A DNA stretch of 64,000 nucleotides from assembly GCF_000269805.1 (NCBI RefSeq), contig NZ_JH711482.1, positions 1 through 64,000 on the forward strand, in the 5' to 3' direction. The notes beneath the pieces are model-generated. The model searched no databases and was not told the DNA's origin. It saw nothing but the letters and a program-made list of their open reading frames with translations. Source of the stretch: Actinomyces massiliensis 4401292 (GTDB lineage: Bacteria; Actinomycetota; Actinomycetes; Actinomycetales; Actinomycetaceae). A program made the translations under genes and the position numbers. Shown one piece after another: positions 2,801-19,215 of the stretch; position 1 is the stretch's first letter, and each line of letters begins with the position of its first letter.

Positions 2801-3661
2801 ATGGCACGACTCATTCGTCTCGACTCCGAACTCGTCCGGCGCGGGCTCGCCCGTTCTCGCACGCATGCTGCCCAGCTCATCGCCGATGGGCATGTCACAC
2901 TTGACGGGGTCGTCGCGGTCAAGCCGGCCCGCCAGGTCAGTCCGGCGCAGGCGCTCGAGATCGTGACGCCCCAGGGAGACGACTACGTCTCGCGCGGTGC
3001 TCATAAACTTGCCGGCGCCCTGGATGCTCTTGACTCCCGCGGCTTGGCGCCCACGATAGAAGGGCGCCGTTGCCTGGATGCCGGCGCCTCCACCGGGGGC
3101 TTTACCGATGTACTGCTTCGGCGCGGAGCCTTGCATGTGGTTGCGGTCGACGTCGGTTACGGGCAGCTCGCCTGGTCCCTCCAATCCGACAAGCGCGTCA
3201 CGGTTCTCGACCGCACCAATGTGCGTGCTCTGGATCCGCAGGCTGTGGCGCCCGCTCCGGGACTCGTTGTCGGCGATCTCTCGTTCATCTCCCTGACTCT
3301 TGTGCTGGCTCCGCTCCTGGCCGCGGCCGCCGAGGACGCCGACTTGCTGCTCATGGTCAAGCCGCAGTTCGAGGTCGGCAAGAAGCGCCTGGCACGCGGG
3401 GGAGTAGTGCGCGATCCCGAGCTGCACGTCGAGACCGTCCTGGCCGTGGCCGCCCACGCACATGAGCTCGGGGTCGGGATCAACGCTGTGGAGGCATCCC
3501 CTTTGCCCGGTCCCGCCGGCAATGTGGAGTACTTCGTCAACCTGCGCGCCGGATGCGGAGGAGCTCCGACTGACCTCGTCGGTGAGGCTCTGCTCGCCGA
3601 GACTCGTCGTGCCGTCGCCGAAGGGCCTGCCGGCTGCTCTACGGAAAGGAGACAGCCGTGA
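2801..3661 (+). CDS. tlyA: TlyA family rRNA (cytidine-2'-O)-methyltransferase
   Basis: A 286-residue protein with an S4 RNA-binding domain at about 3-60 (RLDSELVRRGLARSR onward) and an FtsJ/RrmJ-type Rossmann methyltransferase. The SAM-binding loop is LDAGASTGGFTD. The expected K-D-K-E tetrad can be traced in AHKLAGALD, VGDLSFISL, LMVKPQFEVG and the final GNVEYF strand. In mycobacteria TlyA 2'-O-methylates 16S and 23S rRNA, and its loss gives capreomycin resistance. The stop overlaps the GTG start of the NAD kinase gene (GTGA), so the genes are translationally coupled. The ATG at 2801 has no clear ribosome-binding site. Confidence 0.95.
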   Translation: MARLIRLDSELVRRGLARSRTHAAQLIADGHVTLDGVVAVKPARQVSPAQALEIVTPQGDDYVSRGAHKLAGALDALDSRGLAPTIEGRRCLDAGASTGGFTDVLLRRGALHVVAVDVGYGQLAWSLQSDKRVTVLDRTNVRALDPQAVAPAPGLVVGDLSFISLTLVLAPLLAAAAEDADLLLMVKPQFEVGKKRLARGGVVRDPELHVETVLAVAAHAHELGVGINAVEASPLPGPAGNVEYFVNLRAGCGGAPTDLVGEALLAETRRAVAEGPAGCSTERRQP

Positions 3662-4728
3662 GCGAATCCCCGTCGTCTGCGTCATCAGCGTCGCCCGCGT
3701 CGTTCACAACGTCCCGCACGCCGGTCGGCTCGGCCGGCTCAACAGGGCCGACCGAGCCGACTGAGCCGACCGAGCTTGGGCGGACCGCTCCGCCGGCGGA
3801 GCCGTCTGCGGCAGGGCGCGCGTTGAACCGCGTGATGGTGCTCGAACGGGACCGCGGTGATACGCCGGTACCGCGCCACCGCAAAGCCGCCCCGACCGCC
3901 ACCGCTGTCATGCGCGCGAAGGCGGCGCTGCGGGCTCACGGCGTCCAGGCCGTCGATCCCGCCTTCGGCGGAGACGTCGATCTCGTCCTCGTGCTGGGCG
4001 GGGACGGCACGATTCTGCGCGCCTCGGAAATAGCTCGCCAGCGCGACGTCCCCCTGGTGGGGGTCAACACGGGCCACGTCGGCTTCCTGGCGGAGGCCGA
4101 TCCCGATGCGGTCGAGGGAGTCGTCGCCGACCTCGTTGATGGTCGATACACGGTGGAGACCCGTATGACCATTGATGTTGAAGTCACCGCCCCCGATGGT
4201 GCGGTCACTCACGACTGGGCCCTGAATGAGGCGGCTCTGGAGAAGCGCGACCGCGCCCGCATGCTCGAGGTCGCCATCGGGGTCGATGGGCAGGCGGTGT
4301 CCTCCTTCGGCTGCGACGGCCTGGTGATGGCGACCCCGACCGGATCGACCGCCTACGCCTACTCCGGGGGCGGACCCGTGATCTGGCCGGAGGTCGAGGC
4401 GCTGCTGCTCGTGCCGCTGGTCGCACACGCCCTGTTCACGCGCCCGCTCGTCCTGGGGCCCAACTCCTGCTTGGAGGTGGTGATCCAGCACGCGGGACTG
4501 GGCGACGCCGAGGTCTGGTGCGATGGACGACGAAGCCTGGATGCTCCCGCGGGCTCGCGCATCCGCGTCAGGCGTGCGGACCGGCCCGTGCGTCTGGCAC
4601 GACTGAACGACGCGCCCTTCGCCACTCGCCTCGTACGCAAGTTCGACCTTCCGGTCGAGGGCTGGCGCACCCCCATCGACGACTCCGGCGACTCGGATGA
4701 CTCAGGCGACCTGGGCGACACCGCATGA
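3658..4728 (+). CDS. nadK: NAD kinase
   Basis: A 356-residue ATP- or polyphosphate-dependent NAD kinase, which makes NADP in the cytoplasm. The GGDGT motif is at residues 114-118, the NE pair (ALNEAAL) at 190-191, and the conserved glycine-rich region TPTGSTAYAYSGGGP follows. Residues 1 to about 55 are a Ser/Thr/Pro/Glu-rich extension with a PTEPTEPTE repeat, not present in typical ~300-residue orthologues. The real start could lie further in, but the GTG at 3658 overlaps the tlyA stop and no better internal site is obvious. The C-terminus has a short Asp/Ser-rich tail. It overlaps recN by ATGA. Confidence 0.94.
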   Translation: MSESPSSASSASPASFTTSRTPVGSAGSTGPTEPTEPTELGRTAPPAEPSAAGRALNRVMVLERDRGDTPVPRHRKAAPTATAVMRAKAALRAHGVQAVDPAFGGDVDLVLVLGGDGTILRASEIARQRDVPLVGVNTGHVGFLAEADPDAVEGVVADLVDGRYTVETRMTIDVEVTAPDGAVTHDWALNEAALEKRDRARMLEVAIGVDGQAVSSFGCDGLVMATPTGSTAYAYSGGGPVIWPEVEALLLVPLVAHALFTRPLVLGPNSCLEVVIQHAGLGDAEVWCDGRRSLDAPAGSRIRVRRADRPVRLARLNDAPFATRLVRKFDLPVEGWRTPIDDSGDSDDSGDLGDTA

Positions 4729-6581
4729 TCGAGTCGCTCCATATCGAGAATCTCGGCGTCATCGAGCGGGCTGAGCTTCCTCTCAGCCCCGGTCTGACCG
4801 CCTTGACGGGGGAGACCGGGGCCGGCAAGACCATGGTGCTCACCTCTCTCGGGCTCCTGCTTGGGCAACGGGCCGAGAGCACCATTGTGCGAACCGGGGC
4901 CCAGCGCGCTCTGGTCGAGGGCGCCTTCACTCTGGATCCGGCCTCTCGGGCCGCCTCTCGGGCCAGGCAGGCCGGCGCCGAGCTCGACGACGACCTGCTC
5001 ATCGCCACCCGCACGGTGCCGGCCTCGGGTCGTTCTCGTGCGCATCTGGGCGGGCGTGCGGTCCCCTCCTCCGTGCTCACCGACATCGGATCCCAGCTGG
5101 TGTCGGTACATGGACAGACTGAGCAGCTCCGATTGCGCAGCGCCGCCGCTCAGCGGGCCGCCCTGGACAGTCTGGGAGGTCCGGAGCACGCCGGACTGTG
5201 CCGCCGCTATGCCGAGGCCTATCGCGCGCGTCGCGAAGCCGCCGAAGCGCTGGACCACTGGCGCGCCGGGGCCCAGGCGCGCCAGGAGGAGGCTGAACGC
5301 CTGCGCGAGTGGCTGGAGGCGCTGGAGGCGCTGGAACCTTCTCCGGGGGAGGACCATGAACTCACCGCTGAAGCTGAGCGGCTCGACCATGCCGAGGATT
5401 TGCGTCTGGCGGCGGGCACCGCTCGTACGGCCCTGGTCGGTCAAGAGGACGTCGTTGCCCCCGGCCAGGCGGATGCGGCCGCGCTTCTCGCCGCTGCGCA
5501 GCGCGCTCTGGCCAGTGCTCCGGGAGAGGATGATCGCTTGGCCGAGCTCGCCGGGCGCACCCGCCAACTGAGCGTTCTGACCGCCGACATCGCTGCCGAC
5601 CTGGGGGAGTACCTGGTGTCCCTGGATGCTGATCCGGCCCGGCTCGCCTGGATTCAAGATCGACGCGGAGAGCTGGCACGGGCCTGCCGTGACATCGGAG
5701 GGTCGGCTACGGAGATCGACGATGTCGATGCACTCCTCGCCTGGGGGCGGCGAGCGGCAGATCGGCTGGCTGAGCTCGATGGTGCAGAAGACAGCGCCGC
5801 GTCTCTGGAGCAGGCGCTGGCCGGTGCTCACGCCGCCCTGGATGAGGCGGCCGGCCAGCTGACTGCGGCGCGTCGGGCGTTGGCCGGCAGACTCGAGGCG
5901 GCCGTGACCGCTGAGATCGACGGCCTGCAGATGAAGGGGGCGCGATTGGTCGTTGAGCTTGAGCCGCTCGACGAGCCCGGTCCCACCGGTGCCGAGGCCG
6001 TCTGCCTGATGCTGGTCTCTCATCCGGGTGCCCCTGCGCTACCGCTGGGCAAGGGCGCCTCGGGCGGTGAACTGTCCCGCATCATGCTGGCTCTGGAGGT
6101 CGTGCTGGCCGACGCCGCCGGCGTACCGCAGCCGAGTGCCGCGCCCAGCCACCAGCGGACTTTCGTCTTCGATGAGATCGACGCGGGAGTCGGAGGGCGT
6201 GCTGCGCGTGAGATCGGTCGCAGGCTCGCACGGCTGGCTCGTCGCCACCAGGTGGTGGTGGTCACCCACCTGGCGCAGGTCGCCGCCTGGGCCGACACCC
6301 AGCTCGTGGTCGTCAAGGAGACCAAAGAGACTAAGGGGACCAAAGAGAGCAAGAGGGCCAAGGGGGCTGGGCAGACTCAGGACACTGCTGCATCACTCGG
6401 TGAAAGCCAGGATGATGCTGAGACAGCAGAGACAACCCGCACCCGGGTCGTGCAGGTGGTGGGCTCCGAGCGCGTGACCGAGCTGGCCCGCATGCTCTCC
6501 GGACATGAGCGCTCCGAGGCCGCTCTGCGGCATGCCGCTGAGCTTCTGGAAGAAGCCTCCATGGGACAATCCCCGACGTGA
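4725..6581 (+). CDS. recN: DNA repair protein RecN
   Basis: A 618-residue SMC-like ATPase for double-strand break repair. Walker A GETGAGKT is near residue 28, a long Glu/Arg/Ala-rich coiled-coil region fills the middle, the ABC signature region is SGGELSRIMLALE, and Walker B is FVFDEIDAGVGG. After the conserved VTHLAQVAAWADTQLVVVKE strand there is an insertion of roughly 45 residues, rich in Lys, Thr, Glu and Gly (repeated KET/KGT units), before the C-terminal RVVQV-type strand; most RecN proteins have a short loop here. ATGA overlap upstream and GTGA overlap downstream place it in one coupled operon. Confidence 0.95.
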   Translation: MIESLHIENLGVIERAELPLSPGLTALTGETGAGKTMVLTSLGLLLGQRAESTIVRTGAQRALVEGAFTLDPASRAASRARQAGAELDDDLLIATRTVPASGRSRAHLGGRAVPSSVLTDIGSQLVSVHGQTEQLRLRSAAAQRAALDSLGGPEHAGLCRRYAEAYRARREAAEALDHWRAGAQARQEEAERLREWLEALEALEPSPGEDHELTAEAERLDHAEDLRLAAGTARTALVGQEDVVAPGQADAAALLAAAQRALASAPGEDDRLAELAGRTRQLSVLTADIAADLGEYLVSLDADPARLAWIQDRRGELARACRDIGGSATEIDDVDALLAWGRRAADRLAELDGAEDSAASLEQALAGAHAALDEAAGQLTAARRALAGRLEAAVTAEIDGLQMKGARLVVELEPLDEPGPTGAEAVCLMLVSHPGAPALPLGKGASGGELSRIMLALEVVLADAAGVPQPSAAPSHQRTFVFDEIDAGVGGRAAREIGRRLARLARRHQVVVVTHLAQVAAWADTQLVVVKETKETKGTKESKRAKGAGQTQDTAASLGESQDDAETAETTRTRVVQVVGSERVTELARMLSGHERSEAALRHAAELLEEASMGQSPT

Positions 6582-7801
6582 GGAACCCGTTTCGCAGGCA
6601 GGTGTCGTCGGACCCCGAGTATCCCAGCGGGGTGGTGCGCGTCGACGCGCGCACCAAGAAGCTGACGAAGCGTCTTCAGGCCGGCGAAATCGCCGTCATC
6701 AACCACACGGATCTCGACCGCGTGGCCGCCGAGGCGCTCGCCGAGGCGCGTCCCGCCGCGGTTCTCAACGCCGCACCGTCGGTATCCGGGCGCTACCCGA
6801 ACCTCGGTCCGGGCATTCTGGTGGACGCCGGCATTCTGCTCGTCGACGACTTGGGCACCGACGTCATGCGTCTGCGCGAGGGGCAGCGTGTCAGCATCGA
6901 GTCGGGCGACGACGGGCCCGCGAAGGTGCGTGCGGCCGGCAAGAGCGAGGAGATCATCGCCGAGGGCGTGCTGCAGACCCGGGAACGGGTTGAGGAGTCC
7001 ATGGAGGCGGCGCGTGCGGGCCTGTCGGTCCAGCTCGAGGCGTTCGCGGTCAACACGATGGAGTACATGCGCGGTGAGCGCGATCTTCTGCTCAATGGCG
7101 TGGGCATGCCCGACATCAGCACCAGGATGAGCGGCCGCCATGTCCTGATCGTTGTGCGCGGCTACTCCTACAAACAGGATCTCATGGCGCTGCGTCCCTA
7201 CATTCGCGACTACAAGCCCGTCATCATCGGGGTCGATGGCGGGGCCGATGCCGTCATGGAGGCGGGGCTCAAGCCGGATATGATCGTCGGCGACATGGAT
7301 TCCGTCTCGGACAAGGCCTTGGGAAGCGGCGCCGAGATCGTCGTTCACGCCTACCGCGATGGCCGGGCTCCCGGGCTCGCCCGTGTGGAGCGCCTCGGCG
7401 CCGAGCACAAGGTCTTCGCGGCCACCGGCACCAGCGAGGACATCGCCATGCTCATGGCCGATGGCGCCGGAGCGGAGCTCATCGTCGCGGTCGGCACGCA
7501 CGTGACGCTCCTGGAGTTCCTCGACAAGGGCCGCGAGGGGATGTCCTCGACCTTCCTGACGCGCCTCAAGGTCGGCAACCGCCTCATCGACGCCAAGGGC
7601 GTCTCGCGCTTGTACCGCACTCGTATCTCCGGCTGGCACCTGAGCTTCCTGGCTCTCGCCGGGCTCATCGCCCTGTTCGCAGCGCTGGCCTCCACGCCGG
7701 CGGGGCAGACGCTCCTGGGTCTGTCCGGCGCTGTATGGGATGACATCGTCAACTTCCTCCGTTCACTCGTGGGCCTGGCCCCGAGTACGCCCTCCGTTTG
7801 A
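6578..7801 (+). CDS. steA: SteA-like septal/cell-wall regulator
   Basis: A 407-residue protein matching the Rv1697/SteA family. The middle contains a thiamin-pyrophosphokinase-like catalytic fold (GVDGGADAVMEAGLKPDMIVGDMDS), and one membrane helix lies near the C-terminus (about 350-372). In Corynebacterium, SteA and SteB form a complex at the division site that influences cell-wall hydrolysis at cytokinesis; I transfer that role by family and synteny. No thiamine context is visible. The GTG start overlaps the recN stop, and the stop lies just before the steB start. Confidence 0.87.
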   Translation: MRNPFRRQVSSDPEYPSGVVRVDARTKKLTKRLQAGEIAVINHTDLDRVAAEALAEARPAAVLNAAPSVSGRYPNLGPGILVDAGILLVDDLGTDVMRLREGQRVSIESGDDGPAKVRAAGKSEEIIAEGVLQTRERVEESMEAARAGLSVQLEAFAVNTMEYMRGERDLLLNGVGMPDISTRMSGRHVLIVVRGYSYKQDLMALRPYIRDYKPVIIGVDGGADAVMEAGLKPDMIVGDMDSVSDKALGSGAEIVVHAYRDGRAPGLARVERLGAEHKVFAATGTSEDIAMLMADGAGAELIVAVGTHVTLLEFLDKGREGMSSTFLTRLKVGNRLIDAKGVSRLYRTRISGWHLSFLALAGLIALFAALASTPAGQTLLGLSGAVWDDIVNFLRSLVGLAPSTPSV

Positions 7802-7818
7802 GCAAGGACAGGACCTTC

Positions 7819-8745
7819 ATGATCGATTTCCGCTACCACCTGGTCTCGCTCATCTCCGTCTTCCTGGCGCTGGCCGTGGGCGTCGTCCTCGGCGCAGGCC
7901 CGCTGCAGAACTCGCTGGGCACCGCTCTGAACGACCAGGTCACCTCCCTGCGCGAGAACCGCAAGGCCACGCAGACTCAGCTCGAGCAGACCGAGGCGGC
8001 CGTCAACGACCGTGACGGCTACATCACCGCAGCCGCTGCCGCTTATCTGCCCGGGACCCTCGACGGCAAGAAAGTCGCCCTGGCGGTTCTTCCCGATACT
8101 GAGTCGGATGATGTTGAGGGCATCACCGCTCAGGTGGAAGCGGCAGGGGGGAAGATATCCGGACGCGTGAGCCTGACCACCGCTTGGGTCGATCCTTCTC
8201 GGGAGACTTTCCGCCAGACGTACTCGGGGCAGTTCGCTCCCCACCTCGGCAAGACGACCTCGACTGACGGCAATGGTGTGCTCGGAGAGGGACTGGGCAC
8301 TGCGCTCACCAGCGACTCGGAGAGCGCCAAGGCGCTGATGGACCTGCTGACCGCCACCGATAGCCCGCTGGTCTCCGTTGATGCCAAGCCCAGTGGACCC
8401 GCGGATATGGTCGTCGTCGTCGGTCCGCACAGCCCTGATGCGGCGGACCCGAAGAGCACGGAGACGGCGGATTCGCTGGCGCAGACCGCGGCCTCCTGGG
8501 CCACCGCCCTGACCGGTACGGCTGCGACCGCCACGACGGTCATCGTCGGTGCCGCCGATGCTGACAATGACGTGGTCTCCGTTCTGCGCGCTGACAAGTC
8601 CTCCGTCACCACGATCGACTCGGTCGGCCAGGTCGCCGCAGCGGTGTCCACCCCGTTGGCCCTGGCCTCGACGGCCTCGGGAACGAAGGGGCATTACGGC
8701 TTCGACAAGGGCGTGGATGCGGTTATGCCGCCGGTGTCGAGGTAG
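7819..8745 (+). CDS. steB: SteB/MctB family single-span envelope protein
   Basis: A 308-residue protein with one N-terminal membrane helix (LVSLISVFLALAVGVVLGAG), a coiled coil at about 35-65 and an extracytoplasmic Ala/Thr/Asp-rich domain. It belongs to the MctB/Rv1698 family, annotated as copper transport protein in mycobacteria and as SteB, partner of SteA, in corynebacteria. I start at ATG 7819 because family members begin with a Met just before the basic residues and helix, and AAGGA lies about 10 nt upstream. A TTG at 7798, overlapping the steA stop, would add seven residues. Adjacency to steA favours the septal role. Confidence 0.85.
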   Translation: MIDFRYHLVSLISVFLALAVGVVLGAGPLQNSLGTALNDQVTSLRENRKATQTQLEQTEAAVNDRDGYITAAAAAYLPGTLDGKKVALAVLPDTESDDVEGITAQVEAAGGKISGRVSLTTAWVDPSRETFRQTYSGQFAPHLGKTTSTDGNGVLGEGLGTALTSDSESAKALMDLLTATDSPLVSVDAKPSGPADMVVVVGPHSPDAADPKSTETADSLAQTAASWATALTGTAATATTVIVGAADADNDVVSVLRADKSSVTTIDSVGQVAAAVSTPLALASTASGTKGHYGFDKGVDAVMPPVSR

Positions 8746-8861
8746 CCGAGTAGAAGGAACAAGCGGCCGGGGCGCCGTGGTCGCCTGCATGCCGTCGGGC
8801 CCGGGCGGTGGATCGCGTCCACCACGGGCCTGCCCGGAGCAGAACTTCGATCCAGTCCCGA

Positions 8862-8867
8862 TACGCT
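8862..8867 (+). promoter_or_regulatory. -10 hexamer TACGCT, 6 nt before the start codon
   Basis: TACGCT fits TAnnnT and is separated from the ATG at 8874 by six bases, so transcription would start at the A of the start codon. No ribosome-binding site is visible. This supports both the ATG 8874 start and a separate promoter for the envelope cassette. Confidence 0.55.
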
Positions 8868-8873
8868 GCACCC

Positions 8874-9818
8874 ATGAGCCGCACACCCGGGCGCATCGGC
8901 GCCTTGAGGACCACGCCGGATCGCGCCCTGGCCTGCGCCGCACTTCAAGCGTTCGGCGTGACCCTGTCATGGTCAACGGGCCTGGGAGTCATCGGGGGAC
9001 TGCGTCCTTCTCTGGAACGGACGAACTTCCATGGGCGCGCTGTGAGCCTGCGCGGCGGTGTCGGGGCGGCAGCGGGGTCCGTGGCCGCAGGCCGCGTGGC
9101 CGGCCGTTTGATGAATCGCCCGACCACGCGCGGCTCTGAACGCGTGATGGTCGCGGCTGTCGTTCCGGTGGCAGCGGCCGGCGCCGCCGGTCTCGTCGAT
9201 GATCTGGACGCCGGAGCCCACGACGGTGATGCTCCCGCCAAGGGCCTGGCCGGTCACCTGGGCGCATTGTCCCGCGGGCGCCTGACGACCGGTGTGCTCA
9301 AGATGGCCATGATCGGTTCCGGCGCCCTCGTCTCCGGAGCGCTCATGGCGCGGCGCCGCAGCGCCATGTCCGGTGAGTCTGAATCGCTCGCCACTGCCGC
9401 TGACGCCGCCATCAGTGCGATGGCCATTGCGACGTGGACCAATGTTCACAATCTGCTTGATCTGCGGCCCGGCCGCGCTCTGAAAACCGCGGCTCTGCTG
9501 AGCGGGGCCCTGCTGGCCGATGGTCGCGAGGGCGCCGAGGCGTCCAGGGCACTGGCCGCTGGTGGGCTGGGCGTCGTCGCCGCGGCCCTGCCCGAGGACC
9601 TCATGGAGAACACCATGCTCGGTGATACGGGTGCCAATGCCGTGGGGGCCGTCGTCGGAACCGCTTTGGCGGCCCACCCCAGCCGGACGGTGCGCGGCCT
9701 CGCTGCCCTGGTCGGGACGGCTCTGGTCCTGGCCAGTGAGCGCGTCTCCTTCACCCGGGTGATCGACCGTACTCCGGTGCTGGCCGCGCTTGATGGCCTG
9801 GGGCGCCGGGTCTCATGA
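8874..9818 (+). CDS. MraY/WecA-like polyprenyl-phosphate phosphosugar transferase homologue
   Basis: A 314-residue multi-spanning membrane protein resembling the PNPT family, which transfers a sugar-1-phosphate from a UDP-sugar onto polyprenyl phosphate. Family landmarks: NFHGRAV near residue 51, the DD pair in GLVDDLD at 109-110, the NxxNLLDLRPGRALK segment at 190-204 (in place of NLTDGLDG), and LGDTGAN at 249-255. The usual C-terminal His-rich loop is absent and the NLxDG motif is altered, so it may be divergent or specialised; the sugar is unknown. ATG 8874 is chosen because of the TACGCT-N6 promoter and because upstream codons look non-coding. The stop overlaps the next start (ATGA). Other possibility: an inactive relative. 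Confidence 0.72.
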   Translation: MSRTPGRIGALRTTPDRALACAALQAFGVTLSWSTGLGVIGGLRPSLERTNFHGRAVSLRGGVGAAAGSVAAGRVAGRLMNRPTTRGSERVMVAAVVPVAAAGAAGLVDDLDAGAHDGDAPAKGLAGHLGALSRGRLTTGVLKMAMIGSGALVSGALMARRRSAMSGESESLATAADAAISAMAIATWTNVHNLLDLRPGRALKTAALLSGALLADGREGAEASRALAAGGLGVVAAALPEDLMENTMLGDTGANAVGAVVGTALAAHPSRTVRGLAALVGTALVLASERVSFTRVIDRTPVLAALDGLGRRVS

Positions 9819-11485
9819 CCGCCTCCAGCCAGTCGGGCTCTGGGGCTCCGCGTGCGAAAGGCCTGCTCGGCGCCGTTTCCGGGGTCGCCGGTTTCACCCT
9901 CGTGTCGCGTGTGCTCGGTTTCGGCCGGTGGATCGTGCAGGCGACGACGGTGGGCGCCGGTACCGTAGCCGGTGCCTACGCCACCGCGAACCAGGTGCCC
10001 AATGTTCTCTACGAGGTCGTCGTCGGCGGAGCACTGGCCGCCACTGTCGTGCCGTTGCTGGCCGCGGTCGCGGTTCCTTCGCGCAGCCGAGATGCCTCGC
10101 GGATCGCCTCTGGCCTGCTCGGCGTCGTCCTGGCTGTGCTGACTCCACTGGCGCTGCTTCTGGCGGTACTGGCCGATCCCATTGCGGGGCTTCTGCCCTC
10201 CTCGGCGGGGGCGGATCCTGGTCTTCAGGCGGATCTGGTCGCCGATTTTCTGCGCATGTTCGCCGCCCAGGTGCCCCTGTACGGCATCGGCGTGGTCCTC
10301 ACCGGGGTGCTGCAGGCCTGCGGGCGCTTCACATGGCCCGCGCTGACGCCCATCCTGTCCAGTCTCATCGTCATGGCGACTTACGCCGTCTTCGGCGCCA
10401 TGACGTCCGACTCGCCGGGGCAGGCCGGGAGCACGGCCCTGAGCGTCCTGGGATGGGGCACGACGGCTGGCGTCGCCGCGCTCAGCCTGCCGCTCCTCTA
10501 TCCGGTGATGCGCCTCGGAATTCGCCTGCGTCCCACGCTGCACGTGGACCGGGCGATCGCCTGGCGGGCTCTGCGGTTGGGCAGCGCCGGTGTGTGGACC
10601 CTGGTGGCCCAACAGGCCTCCGTTCTTGCAGTCCTGGCGCTGGCGCGCTCCGGCGGGCGTACTGGAACCGTGGCCGTCTACCAGTACACCCAGGCGGTCT
10701 ACATGCTCCCCTACGCTGTCATGGCGGTGCCCGTGGCCACTGTCGTCTACCCCCGCCTCGCTGCGGCCTTCGACGCGGGAGGCGGGCGCCCTGCCGGGCA
10801 GAGGGCGCACCGGTACCCGCCTCGGGCCGTCGAGCTGGCCGCAGCCTCGACCGCTCTGGTCACTGCTGTTGCGCTCGCCGGTTCCGGGATGCTGATGGCG
10901 GCATCCGCGGGGGCCGAGCGCTTCTTCGCTCTTCTGACCGATGTCGATGGGATGGGCGAGTCCCTGGCCGTACTCGCACCTGCCCTGGTGGGATATTCCC
11001 TGATCTACCAGGTCACCCGGATTCTCTTCGCGGCGGGTCGTGCCCGGCCCGCCGCCCAGGCCACCGCACTGGGGTGGGCGACAGTCGCCGGGGCGTCGGC
11101 CGTGGCGGTGCGCCTCATGGCGCCGGGCGGAGGCGATGGCCGGGCCACCCTTGTGGCGCTGGCCATTGGACTGACGATCGGCATGAGCGTCGCCGGTGCG
11201 GGCATGCTCCTGGCGCTGGCCCTCACCGTGGGCACCCAGGTTCTCGGGCCGACTCTGCGTGCGCTTGCGGTGGGTGCGCCGGTCGCCCTGCTGGTCGGTC
11301 TCTGCGCACGCATCCTGAGCGCACGGATCGAGGCGGTGCCGGCATCGATCGCCGTCGCCGTCGTGAGCGCGCTGGCTGCGGCCTGCCTCGTCATGGGCGC
11401 CTGCGCGGGCGCCGACCGCCGTTTGCTGAATGTCCTCAGGTCCGGCACCGCCTCGACCGATTCGATCGAGTCGCTGAGCACATAG
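9815..11485 (+). CDS. MurJ/MviN-type lipid-linked saccharide flippase
   Basis: A 556-residue polytopic membrane protein of the MOP/MviN family. The N-terminus has the hallmark SRVLGFGR and, further on, PNVLYEVVVGGALAATVVPLL, the actinobacterial form of the MurJ signature. About 13-14 hydrophobic segments can be counted. Such proteins flip lipid-linked precursors (lipid II for MurJ) across the membrane. It lies between a PNPT homologue and a glycosyltransferase, so it could move a different lipid-linked glycan, or be this genome's murJ; the usual murJ locus near parAB/trxB is outside the window. ATGA overlap upstream; GT4 gene 17 nt downstream. Confidence 0.88.
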   Translation: MTASSQSGSGAPRAKGLLGAVSGVAGFTLVSRVLGFGRWIVQATTVGAGTVAGAYATANQVPNVLYEVVVGGALAATVVPLLAAVAVPSRSRDASRIASGLLGVVLAVLTPLALLLAVLADPIAGLLPSSAGADPGLQADLVADFLRMFAAQVPLYGIGVVLTGVLQACGRFTWPALTPILSSLIVMATYAVFGAMTSDSPGQAGSTALSVLGWGTTAGVAALSLPLLYPVMRLGIRLRPTLHVDRAIAWRALRLGSAGVWTLVAQQASVLAVLALARSGGRTGTVAVYQYTQAVYMLPYAVMAVPVATVVYPRLAAAFDAGGGRPAGQRAHRYPPRAVELAAASTALVTAVALAGSGMLMAASAGAERFFALLTDVDGMGESLAVLAPALVGYSLIYQVTRILFAAGRARPAAQATALGWATVAGASAVAVRLMAPGGGDGRATLVALAIGLTIGMSVAGAGMLLALALTVGTQVLGPTLRALAVGAPVALLVGLCARILSARIEAVPASIAVAVVSALAAACLVMGACAGADRRLLNVLRSGTASTDSIESLST

Positions 11486-11502
11486 GAGAGGCAATAACAG
11501 AA

Positions 11503-12699
11503 ATGACAGATCAGACCATGAGTCCCGAGGGCCGCAGTCCGGCAGAGGAGGCTCCAGGGCCCTCGGGTACGGTGGAGGCGAGAGATTCCGGGGGACGCGG
11601 ACGCCGTCGACGCGTCCTGGAGGTCTCCGGCTCAGCGGCCGGGGGAGTGCGAGCGCATCTGGGGGACTGCGCCCGGCTGTTGGTGCGGGCCGGCCACGAT
11701 GTCATCGTCGAGGCGCCGGCTGCCGTGATCGACGGAGTCGATCTGGGCGGGGCGCGGGGGGAGCCTCTCGAGATCGGCCCCAGGCCCAGCCCCGGCGACC
11801 CCGCCGCCGTCGCCAGGCTGCGGCGTCTGGGACGGCGTGCGGACGTCGTCCATGCCCACGGCCTGCGTGCGGGCGCCCTCGCCGCTCTGGCTCTGGGGCG
11901 ACGGCGCTCTGGCCGCACCCGGTTAGTGGTGACGCTGCACAACCTCACTGTCGGTGGACGGCTGACCCGCGCGGTCGGCGAGCGTTTGGAGCGCCTCGTT
12001 GCGACACGGGCCGATCTGGTTCTGGCGGTGAGTCCGGATCTGGTGGAGCGCGCCACCCGCCGCGGTGCGAAGCGGGTTGAGATAGCTGTTATTCCCGCGC
12101 CGCCGCGTGCTCTGACCGGCCTGGCGCCCATCGCCTCCTCGGTGGAGTCGGCATGGTGGGCGGAGGGACTCCGGCTGCTCACAGTGGCCAGACTGGCGCC
12201 GCAGAAGGGCATCGGTCTGCTGTTGGATGCCGCAGCAGCGCTGCAGGTCCGTGCGGCTGACGGCGAGGTGCCCGCATTCGCGTGGGCGCTTGCGGGGGAG
12301 GGGCCGCAGACGCGGGCTGCGCGGGAGCGGGTGGGCGTTGAGAACCTGCCCGTCAGGCTTCTCGGCGGGCGTGAGGACGTTCCCGTTCTCCTCCAAGAGG
12401 CCGATATCGTCATTCAGACCAGCTTGTGGGAGGGGCAGCCGCTTATCGTCCAGGAGGCGATGCGCGCTGGTGCCGCCGTCGTGGCCACCGATGTCGGCGG
12501 CACCGCGCTGACGGCTCGCGGTGGGGCGACGCTGGTCGAACCGGCCCCGGATGCCATCGCCGATGCCGTCGCGGCACTCATGGCGGACGATTCTCTGCGC
12601 GCAGCCGCCCGCGAGCGCGCTCGTGCCGCTGCGGCGGACCTGCCCACCGCCGGCGATCTCCTGGACCAGCTCATTGGGCAGGTCCTGGGTGAGGGATGA
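11503..12699 (+). CDS. GT4 family glycosyltransferase
   Basis: A 398-residue GT-B glycosyltransferase. After a disordered ~35-residue N-terminus the first Rossmann domain opens with VLEVSGSAAGGVRAHL and contains the HAHG loop. The second domain has the donor-binding pattern LLTVARLAPQKGI, then SLWEGQPLIVQEAMRAGAAVVATDVGG, which carries the E-x7-E of GT4 enzymes. It is cytoplasmic or membrane-associated. AGGAGA lies upstream of the ATG at 11503. With the PNPT homologue and flippase before it, a role in extending a lipid-linked saccharide is likely; donor and acceptor cannot be read from the sequence. Confidence 0.88.
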   Translation: MTDQTMSPEGRSPAEEAPGPSGTVEARDSGGRGRRRRVLEVSGSAAGGVRAHLGDCARLLVRAGHDVIVEAPAAVIDGVDLGGARGEPLEIGPRPSPGDPAAVARLRRLGRRADVVHAHGLRAGALAALALGRRRSGRTRLVVTLHNLTVGGRLTRAVGERLERLVATRADLVLAVSPDLVERATRRGAKRVEIAVIPAPPRALTGLAPIASSVESAWWAEGLRLLTVARLAPQKGIGLLLDAAAALQVRAADGEVPAFAWALAGEGPQTRAARERVGVENLPVRLLGGREDVPVLLQEADIVIQTSLWEGQPLIVQEAMRAGAAVVATDVGGTALTARGGATLVEPAPDAIADAVAALMADDSLRAAARERARAAAADLPTAGDLLDQLIGQVLGEG

Positions 12700-12831
12700 T
12701 GCCGGGACCGGATGAGAGCGCGTGCACGACTGCCGCCTGTGCTCAATTTGCTCGATGCTGCGCGATGTTGCTAACTGTTGTTCGACAGCGCTTCACATTG
12801 CTCCATGTATCCGTCGTGCCGCCGGACCTGC

Positions 12832-12837
12832 TAGGTT
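12832..12837 (+). promoter_or_regulatory. Possible pyrG -10 hexamer TAGGTT
   Basis: TAGGTT lies 8 nt before the GTG start of pyrG in an otherwise gene-free, slightly AT-richer gap (12700-12845). The spacing is a little long for a strictly leaderless start. GAAGG between the two could act as a weak ribosome-binding site. Confidence 0.4.
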
Positions 12838-12845
12838 GAAGGCCC

Positions 12846-14606
12846 GTGAATTCAAACCGCGCACGCCTGAGTGGAGCCCTGCCCGACAGTCCTCGGCACA
12901 TCTTCGTCACCGGGGGCGTCGTCTCCTCGCTTGGGAAGGGGCTCACAGCATCCAGCCTGGGCCGTCTTCTGCGGGCTCGCGGGCTCGGCGTCGTGATGCA
13001 GAAGCTGGATCCGTACATCAACGTCGACCCCGGCACGATGAATCCCTTTCAACACGGTGAGGTCTTCGTTACTGAGGACGGCACGGAGGCCGATCTGGAC
13101 ATCGGTCACTACGAGCGTTTTCTGGACGTCAATCTCACCGGTGCCGCCAATGCCACCACCGGGCAGGTCTACTCCACCGTGATCGCCAAGGAGCGCCGCG
13201 GCGAGTATCTCGGAGACACGGTTCAGGTCATCCCGCACATCACCGACGAGATCAAACGGGTCATGCGGGCGCAGGCCGCTCCTGATGCCGACGGCACGAC
13301 GCCCGATGTCATCATCACCGAGATCGGCGGCACGGTGGGGGACATCGAGTCTCAACCCTTCCTCGAGGCCGCCCGCCAGGTGCGCGCCGACTTGGGGCGG
13401 GAGAACGTCGCCTTCGTGCACGTCTCGCTCATCCCCTTCCTGCCCGCAGCCGGTGAGCTCAAGACCAAGCCCACCCAGCATTCGGTGGCGACGCTGCGTT
13501 CTATCGGCATTCAGCCCGATGCGCTCGTGCTGCGCACCGACCGGTCCTTGCCCGAGGGCCTCAAGGGCAAGGTCGCCCTCATGTGCGATGTCGAGGCCTC
13601 CGCCGTCATCGAGTGCAAGGATGCCGCCAGCATCTACGAGGTGCCGCCGATCCTGCACCGCGAGGGACTCGACGCCTTCCTCGTCCAGCGCCTCGCCCTG
13701 CCCTTCCGCGATGTGGATTGGACCGAGTGGAATGGGCTGCTCGATCGTGTGCATGATCCTCGCTACCGCGTCGAGGTCGCGCTGGTGGGCAAGTACGTCG
13801 ACCTGCACGATGCCTACCTGTCGGTCTCAGAGGCCATTCGCCACGGCGGCTTCGCCAACAACGCGCGCGTCGATATCCGCTGGATCGCCTCTGACAGCTG
13901 CGAGACCCGACAGGGGGCCCAGCGCGCTCTGGCGGGCGTCGACGCCGTCGTGGTCCCCGGCGGCTTCGGGGTGCGCGGTATCGAGGGCAAGGTGGGCGCG
14001 TTGCGCTGGGCGCGCGAGCACCGAATCCCCACTCTGGGCCTGTGCCTCGGTCTGCAGTGCATGGTGATCGAGGTCGCGCGCGATCTGCTCGGCCTGACGG
14101 CCGCCTCATCGACGGAGATGGAGCCGGAGACGCCCGACCCGGTGGTGACCACCATGGATTCCCAGCGCCAGTTCGTCGCCGGCGGGGGAGACCTGGGCGG
14201 CACCATGCGGCTGGGCGCCTACCCCGCGACGCTCGTGCCCGGGTCGATAGTCGCGGATGCCTATGGCGCCACCGATGTCAGTGAGCGCCATCGTCATCGC
14301 TTCGAGGTCAACAACGCCTACCGCGAACGCCTGGCCGCCGTCGGACTGCATGTGACGGGAACATCGCCCGACGGGCATCTCACCGAATTCGTTGAGCTCG
14401 ACCGCGATCTGCATCCCTATTTCGTGGCCACTCAGGCCCATCCTGAGCTCAAGTCCCGGCCGACCCGGGCGCATCCGCTTTTCGTCGGCCTGATCAGAGC
14501 GGCCTTGAAGAACCGCCGCGATGTCTACGCCTCCCACCGGCTCGAGAAGTCGGAGTCCGCAGGTGCGGACGAGAACGATGAGAACGAGGAGAGGGCGAAC
14601 CGATGA
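12846..14606 (+). CDS. pyrG: CTP synthase
   Basis: A 586-residue CTP synthase, which aminates UTP to CTP using glutamine and ATP. The N-terminal synthetase domain starts with [20 protein letters not shown] (P-loop) and includes [20 protein letters not shown]. The C-terminal class I glutaminase has the nucleophile Cys in [10 protein letters not shown] and the His/Glu pair in [10 protein letters not shown]. Length is slightly above the usual ~550 because of a short charged tail. The GTG at 12846 is the only reasonable start before the conserved P-loop. ATGA overlap with the Nudix gene, as in mycobacteria (Rv1699-Rv1700). Confidence 0.97.
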
Positions 14607-15271
14607 GCTATGCCGATCTAGAGGACACCCGTGACGACGGTCGAGCGGTTGGCGCGTGCGAGCGGGTCTGGAGCGGTCCGATCTTCACCGTTGACGATGA
14701 GGAGGTCGTGCTGGCCGAGGGGCACGAGCCGGTGCGCAGGCAGACCGTGGCCCATCACGACGCAGTGTCCGTAGTGGCCCTGCGCGAGGGCGAGGACTCC
14801 GCCCAGGACGACGGCGCGGCAGAGATTCTCATGGTGCGCCAGTATCGCCACCCCGTGCGCGCCATGCTCTGGGAGGTGCCGGCCGGGCTGCTGGATGTGC
14901 CTGGCGAGGATCCGTTGGTCGCGGCGCAGCGCGAGCTGGCCGAGGAGACCGATCATGCGGCTGCCAGATGGGATGTCCTGGCTGATTTCTACGCCTCGCC
15001 CGGCTTCACCACGGAGGGGGCGCGCTCCTATCTCGCCCGCGATCTGCGTCTGCTGGCGCCGCAGGAGCGTGTGGAGCGCGAGGCCGAGGAGGCCGAGTTC
15101 GTGCCTACCTGGTTCCGCTTCGACGATGTGCTTGCGGCTGTCATGGCTGGGCGACTGCACAACCCCTCGACCGTCGTGGGGGTCCTCGCCGCCGCGCAGG
15201 CGCGTGCGGCCGATTGGTCGGGGCTGCGCCCGACCGATGCCGGGTGGCTGAGGAGCCCGCGGAGCCTGTAG
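14603..15271 (+). CDS. Nudix hydrolase, ADP-ribose pyrophosphatase type
   Basis: A 222-residue Nudix protein. The Nudix box runs from about residue 95 to 117 ([24 protein letters not shown]), with the REL-EET core that binds Mg2+. The surrounding [19 protein letters not shown] is typical of ADP-ribose pyrophosphatases, which hydrolyse ADP-ribose to AMP and ribose 5-phosphate. Synteny with Rv1700 agrees. It is coupled to pyrG by ATGA, and a strong hairpin 24 nt downstream ends the operon. Confidence 0.92.
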
Positions 15272-15448: not shown

Positions 15449-16867
15449 ATGACTCAACAAGTCTTCTTCCGGCCGCGGCCCGACTGGGTCGGAGATGTCA
15501 TCCCCTACTCCGATGGGGGTGAGCTCAAGCTCTACTACCTCCACGAGTGCCGGCGAGAGCCGACGTGCGGGACCCCTTGGCACCTCGTGACGACCACCGA
15601 TCTCGTCCATTACGAGGAGCGGGGCGAAGTGCTCCCCTCGGGTGGAGACGGCGCCGAGGATTTCAATGCGTACACGGGCAGTGTCGTGCGGGACGATGAC
15701 GGCGAGTACCACCTGTACTACACGGCCAACAACCCCGGCAGACTGGCTCCCGATGGGCGCTCCCTGCAGCTCGTGGCGCACGCGACCAGCACGGACCTGG
15801 TCACCTGGGTCAAGCATCCCGAAGACACGTTCGGCGCTCCTGAAGGTTGTGACCCTGCGGATTGGCGCGATCCATTCGTCTACCGCGATCCGGACGGCGA
15901 GGGCTGGTCGCTCATCCTCGCGGCGCGGCACAGCGAAGGGGCCGAGCGCCGCCGAGGAGTCGTGGCACGGCTTGTCAGCGACGATCTGCGGACGTGGAGG
16001 CCGACCGCTCCACTGTGGGACCCGAGGCGCTTCATTACTCAGGAATGCCCGGAGCTCTTCCGGATGGGGCAGTGGTGGTACCTCGTGTACTCCGAATTCA
16101 CCGACCGCTTCGTCACCCGTTATCGCATGTCCCGTTCCCCGCAGGGGCCATGGCTCGCCCCCGAGCGCGACACCATCGACGGACGCGGGTTCTACGCCGC
16201 CAAGTCGGCTCAGTGGGACGGCAGGCGCATATTCTTCGGCTGGATCGCCTCACGACAGGATGAGCGGGACGACGGTCGCTGGCTCTGGGCGGGCACTCTG
16301 GCGGCGCTGGAAGCGGTCCAGGCCGCCGATGGGACGCTGGACTTCAGGCAGCCCCGCGAAGTGCTCGAGGCGTACTCGCAGCCCGACTACCATCTGCGGG
16401 CGCCGCTGCGGACGGGGAGTGCGGAGCGATACGAGTCGGCGGTCCTCACCGATGTGCTGCCTCGCGATGTGCGCATTGAGGCGGACCTGGAATGGGAACC
16501 GGGCACCCGTGAGATCAGCCTCCTGATCCGCACCGATTCTGAAGGCGAGAACGGCTATGTGCTCCGACTGGAGCCCGCACTGAGCCGCATGGTTCTCGAC
16601 CGCTGGCCGAGGCAGGTGCACGGCACGGAGCAGTGGCACATCTCCGGCGACGTCCCCCACTTCATCGAGCTCGAGCGCCCCATCGACCTGGCGGGGCGCA
16701 GGGCGCACATCGATGTGCTCATCAAGGACGAGCTTCTTCAGTGCTGCGTCAACCGGTCGGTATGCCTGTCCGCATCCGTATACGACCATCCCTCGGGTCG
16801 AGTGGGCCTGGCGGTCCTCGACGGCGCCGCCACCTGTACTCGACTCGACACCTTCCTGGCCTCCTGA
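15449..16867 (+). CDS. Cytoplasmic GH32-type beta-fructosidase
   Basis: A 472-residue enzyme of the five-bladed-propeller beta-fructosidase group (GH32), hydrolysing terminal beta-D-fructofuranosyl units. The likely nucleophile is Asp16 in WVGDVIPY, the transition-state stabiliser motif RDP is at 140-142, and the acid/base Glu199 is in TQECPEL. A C-terminal beta-sandwich follows from about 330. There is no signal peptide, so it acts on sugar already imported. It is first in the operon behind two LacI-type operators, 39 nt before the binding-protein gene. GAGGA is 6 nt before the ATG. Sucrose, kestose or short fructans are plausible substrates. Confidence 0.82.
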   Translation: MTQQVFFRPRPDWVGDVIPYSDGGELKLYYLHECRREPTCGTPWHLVTTTDLVHYEERGEVLPSGGDGAEDFNAYTGSVVRDDDGEYHLYYTANNPGRLAPDGRSLQLVAHATSTDLVTWVKHPEDTFGAPEGCDPADWRDPFVYRDPDGEGWSLILAARHSEGAERRRGVVARLVSDDLRTWRPTAPLWDPRRFITQECPELFRMGQWWYLVYSEFTDRFVTRYRMSRSPQGPWLAPERDTIDGRGFYAAKSAQWDGRRIFFGWIASRQDERDDGRWLWAGTLAALEAVQAADGTLDFRQPREVLEAYSQPDYHLRAPLRTGSAERYESAVLTDVLPRDVRIEADLEWEPGTREISLLIRTDSEGENGYVLRLEPALSRMVLDRWPRQVHGTEQWHISGDVPHFIELERPIDLAGRRAHIDVLIKDELLQCCVNRSVCLSASVYDHPSGRVGLAVLDGAATCTRLDTFLAS

Positions 16868-16906
16868 GCACACCGTCACAAACACACCTTTCGAAGGAGA
16901 AAGATC

Positions 16907-18253
16907 ATGCTGCTCAAGCGCTCTCAGTTCCTCGCTCTCGCCGCCGGTGCGCTCGTGACGCCGCTTGTCGCATCCTGCGGCAAGAGCGCCGCTCCGTCGG
17001 GTCCGGTGGACATCGATCCCAAGGGGGAGATCAAGCCCCGTGAGATCTCCTGGCTGCTGTCGCGTCCCGCCAACGGCGCCGTTATCGACACCATGCAGGA
17101 GATCGCCGGCGAGTACGCCGAGGAGCATGCCGGATTCCAGCTCACGCTGATCACGACTCCCGACCGCCCGTCGTACATCCAGAAGTATGAGACGCTCGCG
17201 GCCGCCAACAAACTGCCCGAACTCTTCGACACCGATGCCACGCCGTTCGCGCAGAAGCTCGCTTCGCAGAACAAGATGGTCAATATCGCCGACCTGCTCG
17301 ACCACTTCGGCATCACGGATCAGTACCGGCCCTCCGCGTTGGACTACCAGCGCTTCGACGACGGCTCCCTCTACATGATCCCTCTCGAGTACGGCATCGA
17401 GGTATTCTGGTACAACAAGGCGCTCTTCAAGCAGGCCGGCGTCGAGGTACCCGCCTCGCTGGACGACTTCCCCGCCGCGTGCAAGAAGCTCGCCGATTCC
17501 GGGGTGACGCCTATCGCCCTCGATGGCCTCGACGGCTGGACCCTGGAGCGCTACGTCGCCTACCAGCCGTTCCGGATGGAGGGCGAGGAGTACATCAAGA
17601 GCCTCAAGAAGGCCGAGAGCACGTTCGCCGACGAGCCGGGCAGGAAAATGGCCCAGTGGCTCCACGATCTCGGCAGCTCCGGGGCGTTCCAGGAGGGATT
17701 CTCCTCAGTGGGCTACGCCGACGCGCAGAGCCTGTTCACCTCTGGGAAGGCGGCGATGTACAACATCGGCACGTGGGAGCTTCCGAGCCTGGCGACGACC
17801 GAGCTCTCGCAGGATCTTCAGGACAACATCGGCTTCTTCACCCTGCCGACCACCGCGGGCTCCAAGACGGGCGCGAACGAGTATGTCGCTCCTTCCGGCA
17901 TCGGTGTGGCCGTCAATGCCAGCACCTACGATCCGCTCGTTCACGACTTCCTCAAGTTCGTGCTCGAGCGCTACCCGGAGAAGTACGCGGCCACCGGGCT
18001 GCTCGGCCCGACGACCATCGAGCCCGTGGTTCCCGACAACGCGCTGCCCATCTACAAGGAGGCCATTGCGGAGGCCGCGAACGTGAGCGGCGCCGCGCTG
18101 ATGCCTTGGGATACCCAGCTCGATCCGACGACGAACACCAAGCTGCAGCAGGAGCAGGTCCTGCTCGTTCAGGGCGACATCACAGTCGACGAATTCGTCG
18201 AGACGATGGATGCCGCGCTCACTGAGAACGCGTCGGCCTACTTCAACGAGTGA
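16907..18253 (+). CDS. ABC sugar transporter, substrate-binding lipoprotein
   Basis: A 448-residue family 1 extracellular solute-binding protein. The N-terminus is a lipoprotein signal (basic MLLKRS, hydrophobic core, lipobox VASC with Cys24), so it is anchored outside the membrane. The mature part shows a typical carbohydrate-binding fold with WYNKALFKQAG and Trp/Tyr-rich segments that stack on sugars. GAAGGAGA is 7 nt before the ATG. Placed between fructosidases and permeases it probably binds sucrose or fructo-oligosaccharides (inference). A strong hairpin follows its stop. Confidence 0.93.
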   Translation: MLLKRSQFLALAAGALVTPLVASCGKSAAPSGPVDIDPKGEIKPREISWLLSRPANGAVIDTMQEIAGEYAEEHAGFQLTLITTPDRPSYIQKYETLAAANKLPELFDTDATPFAQKLASQNKMVNIADLLDHFGITDQYRPSALDYQRFDDGSLYMIPLEYGIEVFWYNKALFKQAGVEVPASLDDFPAACKKLADSGVTPIALDGLDGWTLERYVAYQPFRMEGEEYIKSLKKAESTFADEPGRKMAQWLHDLGSSGAFQEGFSSVGYADAQSLFTSGKAAMYNIGTWELPSLATTELSQDLQDNIGFFTLPTTAGSKTGANEYVAPSGIGVAVNASTYDPLVHDFLKFVLERYPEKYAATGLLGPTTIEPVVPDNALPIYKEAIAEAANVSGAALMPWDTQLDPTTNTKLQQEQVLLVQGDITVDEFVETMDAALTENASAYFNE

Positions 18254-18258
18254 GCGTC

Positions 18259-18292
18259 GCCCGGTGGAGGACGTCAGTGTCTTCCACCGGGC
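18259..18292 (+). promoter_or_regulatory. Intra-operon hairpin between binding protein and permease genes
   Basis: GCCCGGTGGAGGAC pairs with GTCTTCCACCGGGC: a 14-bp stem with one G-U pair and a 6-nt loop, starting 5 nt after the binding-protein stop. Hairpins here in sugar ABC operons typically stabilise the upstream mRNA or stop part of the transcripts, giving more binding protein than permease. No T tract is present. Confidence 0.75.
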
Positions 18293-18331
18293 CCGCTCCT
18301 CGACCTCATCCACAGTTTCGAGAAGGCACCC

Positions 18332-19213
18332 ATGCTCCCATACAGGTCTCGGATCTCGGTCCTCATATTCCTCCTCCCTCCTGTCATCCTTTTCGGCGGC
18401 GGCGTTCTGCTCCCGATCGTGCAGTCCCTCTTCCTGAGCTTCTTCAAGTGGGACGGGATCACGAATATGCAGTTCGTCGGTTTCGACAATTACGCGCAGA
18501 TGCTCACCGCTGATCCCACGTTCTGGAAAGCATTCTTCAATCAGATCCTGTACCTGGTCATCTGCGTGACGATTCAGATGGGGGTGGGTCTGGGGATCGC
18601 CTGCCTGCTCATGACCATCACGCGTGGTCGCGAGGTTCTGAAGGTTCTCTACCTCATGCCGGCCGTGATCTCGACGACCGCCATCGCACTGCTTTTCCAG
18701 CGGATCTACTCTCTGGATCCGCCGGGTCTGATCAACAGTCTGCTGAATCTCGTCGGCCTCGGTGCTGCGGACCGCGCATGGCTCTCGGACATCCACACGG
18801 TGCTGGCCGCGGTCTCCGTGCCCGAGGGCTGGAGGTTCTTGGGGCTCTACACGATCATCCTGTACGCCGCTCTCCTGTCCGTGCCCAAGGAGCTGGAGGA
18901 GGCTGCGGCCCTTGACGGGGCCAATGCCTGGCAGATCTTCGTCAAGATACGCTTCCCCCACATTCGGCCCGTCTGGGCCACGACGATGGTCATGGTGGTC
19001 ACCTACGGGCTGAGAGGATTCGACATCCCCTATCTCCTGACGAACGGCGGTCCCGGGCAGTCCTCAGAACTCGTGACCACCTATATGTACAAGACCGCTT
19101 TCGTCAGCACGAACTACGGCTACGCATCCGCAATCTCCGTCTTCATCGTGATCGAGTGCCTGGTAGCGGTGGCGCTCATCTTCGGACTTCTGCTTCGCAA
19201 GGGGAATGACTGA
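18332..19213 (+). CDS. ABC sugar transporter permease (MalF type)
   Basis: A 293-residue membrane protein with six predicted helices, of the MalF/UgpA class of carbohydrate permeases. The cytoplasmic EAA loop is ELEEAAALDGANAWQIFVKI, which docks with the ATPase. The C-terminal region has LTNGGPGQSSELVTTYMY, typical of this permease class. The ATG at 18332 follows GAGAAGGCACCC. Only 2 nt separate it from the second permease. No ATPase gene is present in the locus. Confidence 0.93.
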   Translation: MLPYRSRISVLIFLLPPVILFGGGVLLPIVQSLFLSFFKWDGITNMQFVGFDNYAQMLTADPTFWKAFFNQILYLVICVTIQMGVGLGIACLLMTITRGREVLKVLYLMPAVISTTAIALLFQRIYSLDPPGLINSLLNLVGLGAADRAWLSDIHTVLAAVSVPEGWRFLGLYTIILYAALLSVPKELEEAAALDGANAWQIFVKIRFPHIRPVWATTMVMVVTYGLRGFDIPYLLTNGGPGQSSELVTTYMYKTAFVSTNYGYASAISVFIVIECLVAVALIFGLLLRKGND

Positions 19214-19215
19214 CC

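Follow-up and report, generated by a model that had tools for sequence, protein, structure and literature searches.

A diverged PNPT-like gene beside steA and steB marks an old module of Actinomycetota and accompanies an intact pyrophosphokinase-type motif in SteA

Published reports describe SteA and SteB as acting in cell separation in Corynebacterineae (PMC6705760, PMC12338722, PMC12977500), and one of them, in which SteA is studied as a regulator of that process, calls it a promising drug target in Mycobacterium tuberculosis (PMC12338722). The Corynebacterium glutamicum protein (CgSteA) is reported to be stabilised by UDP or GDP, the result for the M. tuberculosis protein (MtSteA) being inconclusive, and a survey of SteAB across Actinobacteria in the same paper reports steA-steB fusions and clostridial pairs (PMC12977500). 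A term search of the main text of that paper returned neither 'MurJ' nor 'glycosyl', and steAB was not linked to a PNPT or to MurJ in the titles and abstract openings of the open-licence PMC papers that the literature searches listed. As far as these searches show, a link between the enzyme-like pocket of a division regulator and a diverged PNPT is undescribed in the literature searched. The window analysed here is a stretch of 64,000 nucleotides from Actinomyces massiliensis 4401292 (assembly GCF_000269805.1, contig NZ_JH711482.1, positions 1 to 64,000), in which steA and steB are followed by genes for a PNPT-like integral membrane protein, a MurJ-family flippase paralogue (MurJ2) and a family 4 glycosyltransferase (GT4).

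These genes, whose products belong to known superfamilies, form an old, phylum-level module of Actinomycetota that is coupled to SteA. We consider it fairly probable that the block and SteA act together in the synthesis of a lipid-linked intermediate, which is probably a glycan. The computed support consists of gene order, co-occurrence, the fold of the PNPT-like protein, its conserved catalytic residues, and the degradation of a SteA motif where the module is lacking. The relevant features of the window are:

6578..7801, + strand: steA, 407 aa (NF040608), a pyrophosphokinase-like domain plus two predicted C-terminal helices
7229..7303, + strand: SteA residues 218-242, GVDGGAD...GDMDS, the nucleotide/pyrophosphokinase motif
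7798..8745, + strand: steB, MctB family (PF11382, 2.3e-73)
8874..9818, + strand: PNPT-like integral membrane protein, 314 aa, the core of the module, an open reading frame (ORF) matching no Pfam or NCBIfam family
9198..9203, + strand: D109-D110 of the PNPT-like protein (DD motif), by alignment invariant in two sequence sets and present in 139/141 of the widest
9450..9485, + strand: N193-K204 of the PNPT-like protein, NLLDLRPGRALK, in the place of the NxxDGxxG uracil/Mg loop of other PNPTs, mapped by motif
9621..9626, + strand: G250-D251 of the PNPT-like protein, the Asp assigned as Mg ligand by motif
9815..11485, + strand: murJ2, MurJ-family flippase paralogue (PF03023, 1.2e-36)
11503..12699, + strand: GT4 glycosyltransferase (PF13692, 1.3e-23; PF13579, 1.6e-23)

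An earlier note on this stretch, made from its letters, had described three genes with overlapping or close ends between steB and pyrG, and this holds: the PNPT stop and the murJ2 start share 4 bases, and 17 bases separate murJ2 from the GT4 gene. Its idea of a dedicated, possibly division-linked, glycoconjugate, for which it proposed a comparison of co-occurrence and gene order with steAB, was followed in samples of the window's family (81 genomes), the phylum (296) and the class (216). Absence or decay of the PNPT-like gene in relatives, an outcome that the note had set against its own idea, is not the general picture, as 65 of the 81 family genomes carry a conserved copy. With the best 8 (phylum) or 11 (class) first-look candidates per genome scored, such that a PNPT elsewhere could be missed, it was found in 108/296 phylum genomes at E <= 0.001, with 103 matches also passing 1e-20, and in 90/216 genomes of the class sample. 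SteA exceeded its cut-off in 112 of the 296 phylum genomes, and 98 of the 103 with a strong PNPT match also carried SteA. In all 89 same-contig pairs among these the two genes are co-oriented and lie within 15 kb (SteA of G285 is in two pieces, and the smaller, which shares a contig with the PNPT, was counted; in G333 the PNPT gene precedes steA); the other 9 pairs are on separate contigs. The 14 phylum genomes with SteA only comprise 11 of family f7 (f-codes denote families; judging by size, gene order and SteA score, f6 would be Streptomyces-like and f7 Mycobacteriaceae), one of f9, G230, whose contig ends shortly past murJ2 and GT4, and G288, which has a diverged PNPT (1e-21) adjoining pyrG; the five with PNPT only all belong to f6. 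In the class sample, SteA was found in 122/216 genomes and both proteins in 80, which span 22 families. These figures, together with the erosion of the SteA pocket where the PNPT is missing (see below), support a dedicated module with a functional tie to steAB.

Gene order is equally regular. The order recN-steA-steB-PNPT-murJ2 was present in all 20 fetched family loci, with GT4 in 17 of them. Among the named loci, which are the best 80 of at least 578 confirmed matches, steA is in the block in 79, murJ2 in 79 and GT4 in 54; they include Actinoplanes, Micromonospora, Dactylosporangium, Cellulomonas, Kribbella, Brevibacterium, Brachybacterium, Janibacter and Kineosporia. Many loci of deep lineages read recN-steA-steB-x-PNPT-pyrG. 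At fetched loci, absence of the PNPT was established with a hidden Markov model run on all ORFs of at least 70 aa. In 11 of 12 PNPT-lacking family loci steB is followed by pyrG or a Nudix gene, and the twelfth contig ends. Among 18 informative PNPT-lacking loci collected later, steB is followed by pyrG in 13 and is the last gene of the stretch in two; at L202 the 3.7 kb ahead of pyrG contain no recognised gene, and L205 and L206 still have GT4. All seven f7 loci lack PNPT, murJ2 and GT4 in the steA-pyrG interval, and one of them, L190, has no steB match. According to the earlier note, pyrG directly follows steB (Rv1698) in M. tuberculosis as well; here, that order came from other genomes. One locus, L119, carries the record title Tissierella; its block is actinobacterial, with 50.8% GC and best recN matches at about 45% identity to Actinomycetota of this set, and the title is probably wrong.

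The window SteA satisfies the NF040608 equivalog model (493.9 bits, cut-off 150), stays below that of thiamine diphosphokinase (TIGR01378; 38.1 bits, cut-off 76.4), and shares the fold and the DG...GDxD motif of the thiamine pyrophosphokinase (TPK)/MptE pyrophosphokinases; the SteA fold was built on 36 of 76 usable named SteA sequences plus that of the window. The motif is intact in 132/132 rows with a PNPT and degraded in 35/36 rows without one; in its strict spelling it occurs in 124/132 of the former versus 0/36 of the latter. Two loci with an intact motif, L194 and L204, were dropped as their contigs end before any PNPT; had they been kept, the PNPT-lacking rows would number 35 degraded and 3 intact. 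The 18 later PNPT-lacking loci comprise 17 with a degraded motif and one with an intact motif and a PNPT remnant. On a first (species) tree of 154 of the 168 rows, the 14 lacking a long enough RecN being omitted, each trait changes 12 times, and 8 supported independent pairs are found, 7-8 in step and 0 against (p 0.008-0.016). A second tree (118 of the 154 rows, flagged for long branches) gave 8 and 9 changes and 6 pairs, again with 0 against (p 0.031-0.063).

Conservation of the block could in principle have no functional basis, the genes hitch-hiking in a stable recN-pyrG stretch and the SteA erosion being coincidental; recN, nadK, tlyA and the Nudix gene are, after all, frequent neighbours too. 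This is hardly credible. In PNPT-lacking rows SteA keeps a fraction of 0.627 of its near-invariant columns, an erosion far exceeding that of SteB (0.927) and of the four neighbours RecN (0.989), NadK (0.998), TlyA (0.995) and PyrG (0.990), and it recurs with at least 6 supported changes of PNPT presence (8 supported pairs on the first tree). The same control genes disfavour chance erosion of SteA or fast-evolving genomes as the cause. The DGG...GDxDS motif is degraded in the SteA of both C. glutamicum and M. tuberculosis, the two solved homologues. Since SteA keeps its enzyme-like pocket almost exclusively in the presence of the module, the SteA proteins studied most closely may well be reduced forms.

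The core of the module is strongly diverged. The earlier note had read its DD and LGDTGAN motifs as kept, its NLxDG motif as altered and its C-terminal His-rich loop as lost, all of which proved correct: the DD motif is residues 109-110, LGDTGAN is present, the expected DG(I/L)(D/N)G reads DLRPG, and no histidine follows residue 268. A structure prediction, which the note had recommended, gave a fold of the MraY/DPAGT1 type (input: 47 named PNPTs plus the window protein, out of 51/80 kept by start motif). Foldseek placed MraY best at 1.5e-3, with no match at E <= 0.001, and a second look, VIA, was decisive for the fold. D109 and D110 of the DD motif and N193 and D251, the Mg-binding Asn and Asp, occur in 139-140/141 PNPT rows (the correspondence of the latter two with N185/D252 of DPAGT1 being mapped by motif), and the wider set N193, D196, D251, D109, D110 and H128 is kept in 138-140/141. 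Even in the f6 clade, which lacks SteA, D109, D110, D196, H128 and D251 are present in 10/10 sequences and N193 in 9/10. K123, a lysine near the phosphates, is near-invariant in two narrower sets and present in 107/141 of the widest; it is Arg in f6. The NxxDGxxG motif with its uracil-binding Gly and Asn/Asp is lacking, L197 (123/141) and P199 (138/141) standing in these places.

That retention bears on the idea of a PNPT-like protein without catalytic function that serves the SteAB complex as a membrane scaffold, with MurJ2 and GT4 loosely associated. The degree of divergence would suit it, as the window protein has no Pfam match of its own and 3 of 24 relatives match PF00953 at all (best E 0.0011, the cut-off not being reached), and so would the inconstancy of MurJ2 and GT4, but near-complete conservation of the catalytic residues, also in a clade without SteA, makes a scaffold unlikely. 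A better-placed alternative, possible if clearly the minority view, is an ordinary secondary cell-wall polymer pathway in which a UDP-sugar is the donor for the PNPT, while SteA only senses UDP/UMP or this donor and reports the status of the glycan to SteB and the wall hydrolase. The stabilisation of CgSteA reported in PMC12977500 fits it, as do the SteA pocket residues retained alongside the PNPT and the Mg-site residues retained in the PNPT itself; the Leu and Pro found where DPAGT1/MraY contact uracil through Gly and Asn/Asp would, however, be odd for a standard UDP-sugar enzyme.

The copy number of murJ, which the earlier note had wished to see counted, shows that murJ2 is not the only MurJ of the genome. 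It exceeds the PF03023 cut-off (126.7 bits vs 27.4) and remains below that of the TIGR01695 lipid II flippase equivalog (140.4 bits vs 235.55), and a canonical MurJ (175 bits) is encoded on another contig (C1:584923). Two ordinary PF00953 enzymes also lie elsewhere, judged to be MraY, whose gene has murF- and murD-like neighbours, and a WecA-like enzyme; since the genome thus has a canonical MurJ, MraY and WecA-like enzyme, the three genes of the cassette are additional. Of the family genomes tested, the 13 that bear the module each gave at least two MurJ-family matches above the cut-off, whereas the two module-less ones gave a single match apiece. A MraY-like fold and a MurJ-like flippase adjoining division genes might suggest a second, septum-specific route to peptidoglycan precursors, with a lipid I-like step and a dedicated MurJ. 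We regard this as very unlikely: the genome has MraY and a canonical MurJ at other sites, the PNPT has a changed uracil loop, a GT4 belongs to the module, and many SteA-bearing lineages lack the module. The sequence EGQPLIVQE of the window GT4 corresponds to the E-x7-E motif. Many deep-branching loci lack murJ2 and GT4, which are both less constant than the PNPT, and a Pfam scan of gap genes in deep lineages identified the three short ones covered as GT2; 5 of the 10 gap-region proteins scanned there had no Pfam match. Proteins of 705-794 aa adjoin the PNPT in some deep lineages (L042:7150-9453, L053:6663-9044, L063:6040-8154); they have no Pfam match and share a BLAST cluster, although clustering of deep-lineage gap ORFs is noisy, and that of L063 gives the impression of an alkaline-phosphatase-type domain with membrane segments. 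Locus L137 (Allosalinactinospora) has three murJ2-like and two GT4 matches downstream of the PNPT.

The earlier note had spoken of a cassette inserted in the steA-steB-pyrG block. This part did not stand: the order spans the phylum, and loss in other lineages fits better. An insertion model is disfavoured by that phylum-wide order, by the PNPT-lacking loci, where steB mostly lies beside pyrG or the Nudix gene, and by one locus with a decaying PNPT. At that locus, L205 of family f82 (~6790-7010, minus strand), remnants of a PNPT, split over two frames, lie next to a SteA with an intact motif; at L206, of the same family, no PNPT was detected and SteA reads GDFGS. The pair looks like a case in which the PNPT decays first and the SteA motif second, and absence of the module probably reflects loss rather than an ancestral state.

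Several observations weigh against a partnership of the module with SteA, or against so direct a reading of it. The SteA motif was chosen with the first 18 PNPT-lacking loci already in view, and a looser spelling was adopted later. Erosion is graded, DGG being kept in 7/35 degraded rows and GDLDS in one (L199), and the sole f82 control row retains 94% of near-invariant SteA columns. The sampled genomes are related, and the trees can neither root the changes nor tell gain from loss. Loss of a protein contact would suffice to explain the erosion, which need not imply a shared metabolite. Of the 16 genomes in the window's family that have no PNPT, 14 retain SteA, and 42 class-sample genomes have SteA only (18 of f7, 14 of f9, 5 of f76 and one each of five other families); as SteA is common where no PNPT is detected, the module is not needed for the division role of SteAB. 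The cassette is mostly not scattered away from steAB, a pattern that the earlier note had counted against its idea, but the f6 clade, with all 10 of the 90 PNPT-bearing class-sample genomes that have PNPT only, keeps PNPT and GT4 without SteA. Finally, comparison by hhalign of the PNPT profile with the single sequences of the genome's own MraY and WecA-like enzymes was not significant (probabilities 7.3 and 2.3); the WecA-like alignment nevertheless sets the DD, NxxD and GD motifs in register. An hmmsearch of the PNPT against PDB sequences had MraY as its top match, with E 0.3.

Within the window, the order tlyA-nadK-recN-steA-steB-PNPT-murJ2-GT4-pyrG-nudix runs on a single strand from 2801 to 15271, with 4-base overlaps at several junctions; tlyA, nadK and nudix were named from their own sequences. 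The immediate flanks are:

4725..6581, + strand: recN (PF02463), the usual upstream neighbour by gene-order comparison
12846..14606, + strand: pyrG, a frequent downstream neighbour

The ATG at 8874 is the best start for the PNPT (314 aa). The steB-PNPT interval has an RNA structure stability like that of shuffled sequences (z 0.26), and a scan of 6400-13000 for promoters and terminators gave none above chance. An ordinary sugar uptake cluster lies further on, at 15449-20157, where genes for a solute-binding protein and two ABC permeases come after that of a GH32-like glycosidase.

For the working of the block, the enzymatic activities, substrates, product, direction of flipping and coupling to SteB are what we infer. 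SteA, cytoplasmic and membrane-bound, with an intact TPK/MptE-type pocket, would make, bind or turn over a phosphorylated small molecule. The PNPT-like enzyme would move a phospho-group from an activated donor onto polyprenyl phosphate, after which GT4 (probably GT2 in some deep lineages) would add a sugar and MurJ2, where present, might flip the product. The status of the pathway could then be read out, via SteB, to septal cell-wall cleavage. Lineages without the module would have kept the division role of SteA and lost the ancestral chemistry. A more specific version, which we hold to be rather improbable, has ancestral SteA as a pyrophosphokinase-type enzyme making a nucleotide-free pyrophosphate donor, taken in place of a UDP-sugar by a PNPT without a uracil pocket through R198, R201 and K204, SteA becoming a division regulator in Mycobacteriales after loss of the pathway. 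The PNPT reaction would then be independent of nucleotides and would feed a lipid-linked product. A CDP-activated donor, prompted by the neighbouring pyrG, is only a thought.

An intact SteA pocket thus accompanies an undescribed putative lipid-linked pathway in Actinomyces, Micromonospora, Actinoplanes, Cellulomonas, Kribbella, Brevibacterium and deep Actinomycetota. Module-bearing species offer a direct route in the hunt for the SteA ligand, and, if its donor differs, the PNPT subfamily would break the UDP-sugar rule.

Compared with SteAB of Corynebacterineae (SteA/TapA, Rv1697; SteB/MctB, Rv1698), in which the motif is degraded, the window SteA keeps DGG...GDxDS, and its steAB genes adjoin PNPT, murJ2 and GT4. 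Unlike MptE/HPPK and thiamine pyrophosphokinase, SteA has an additional domain at its N-terminus and ends in a helical tail. The PNPT superfamily (MraY, WecA/TagO, DPAGT1; PF00953) has NxxDGxxG where the window protein reads NxxDLRPGRxxK, without the uracil-contacting residues, and a C-terminal His/Arg motif that the window protein lacks; the gene of the latter, moreover, is tied to steA. MurJ2 belongs to the MurJ family (PF03023), and its R32 and R38 occupy the alignment positions of R25 and R31 in the canonical copy, from which it differs in length (a frame of 563 codons as against 1343). The remaining comparison is with Actinomyces oris, in which LcpA is reported to glycosylate GspA with a glycan chain from 'a separate unknown pathway' (PMC6381275). 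That species shares its genus with the closest named kin of the window genome, A. haliotis and A. naeslundii on the second tree. The genome has four LCP-family matches, which could accept a lipid-linked glycan. The module, although far more widespread than Actinomyces, is in that genus a possible candidate for the source of the GspA glycan chain.

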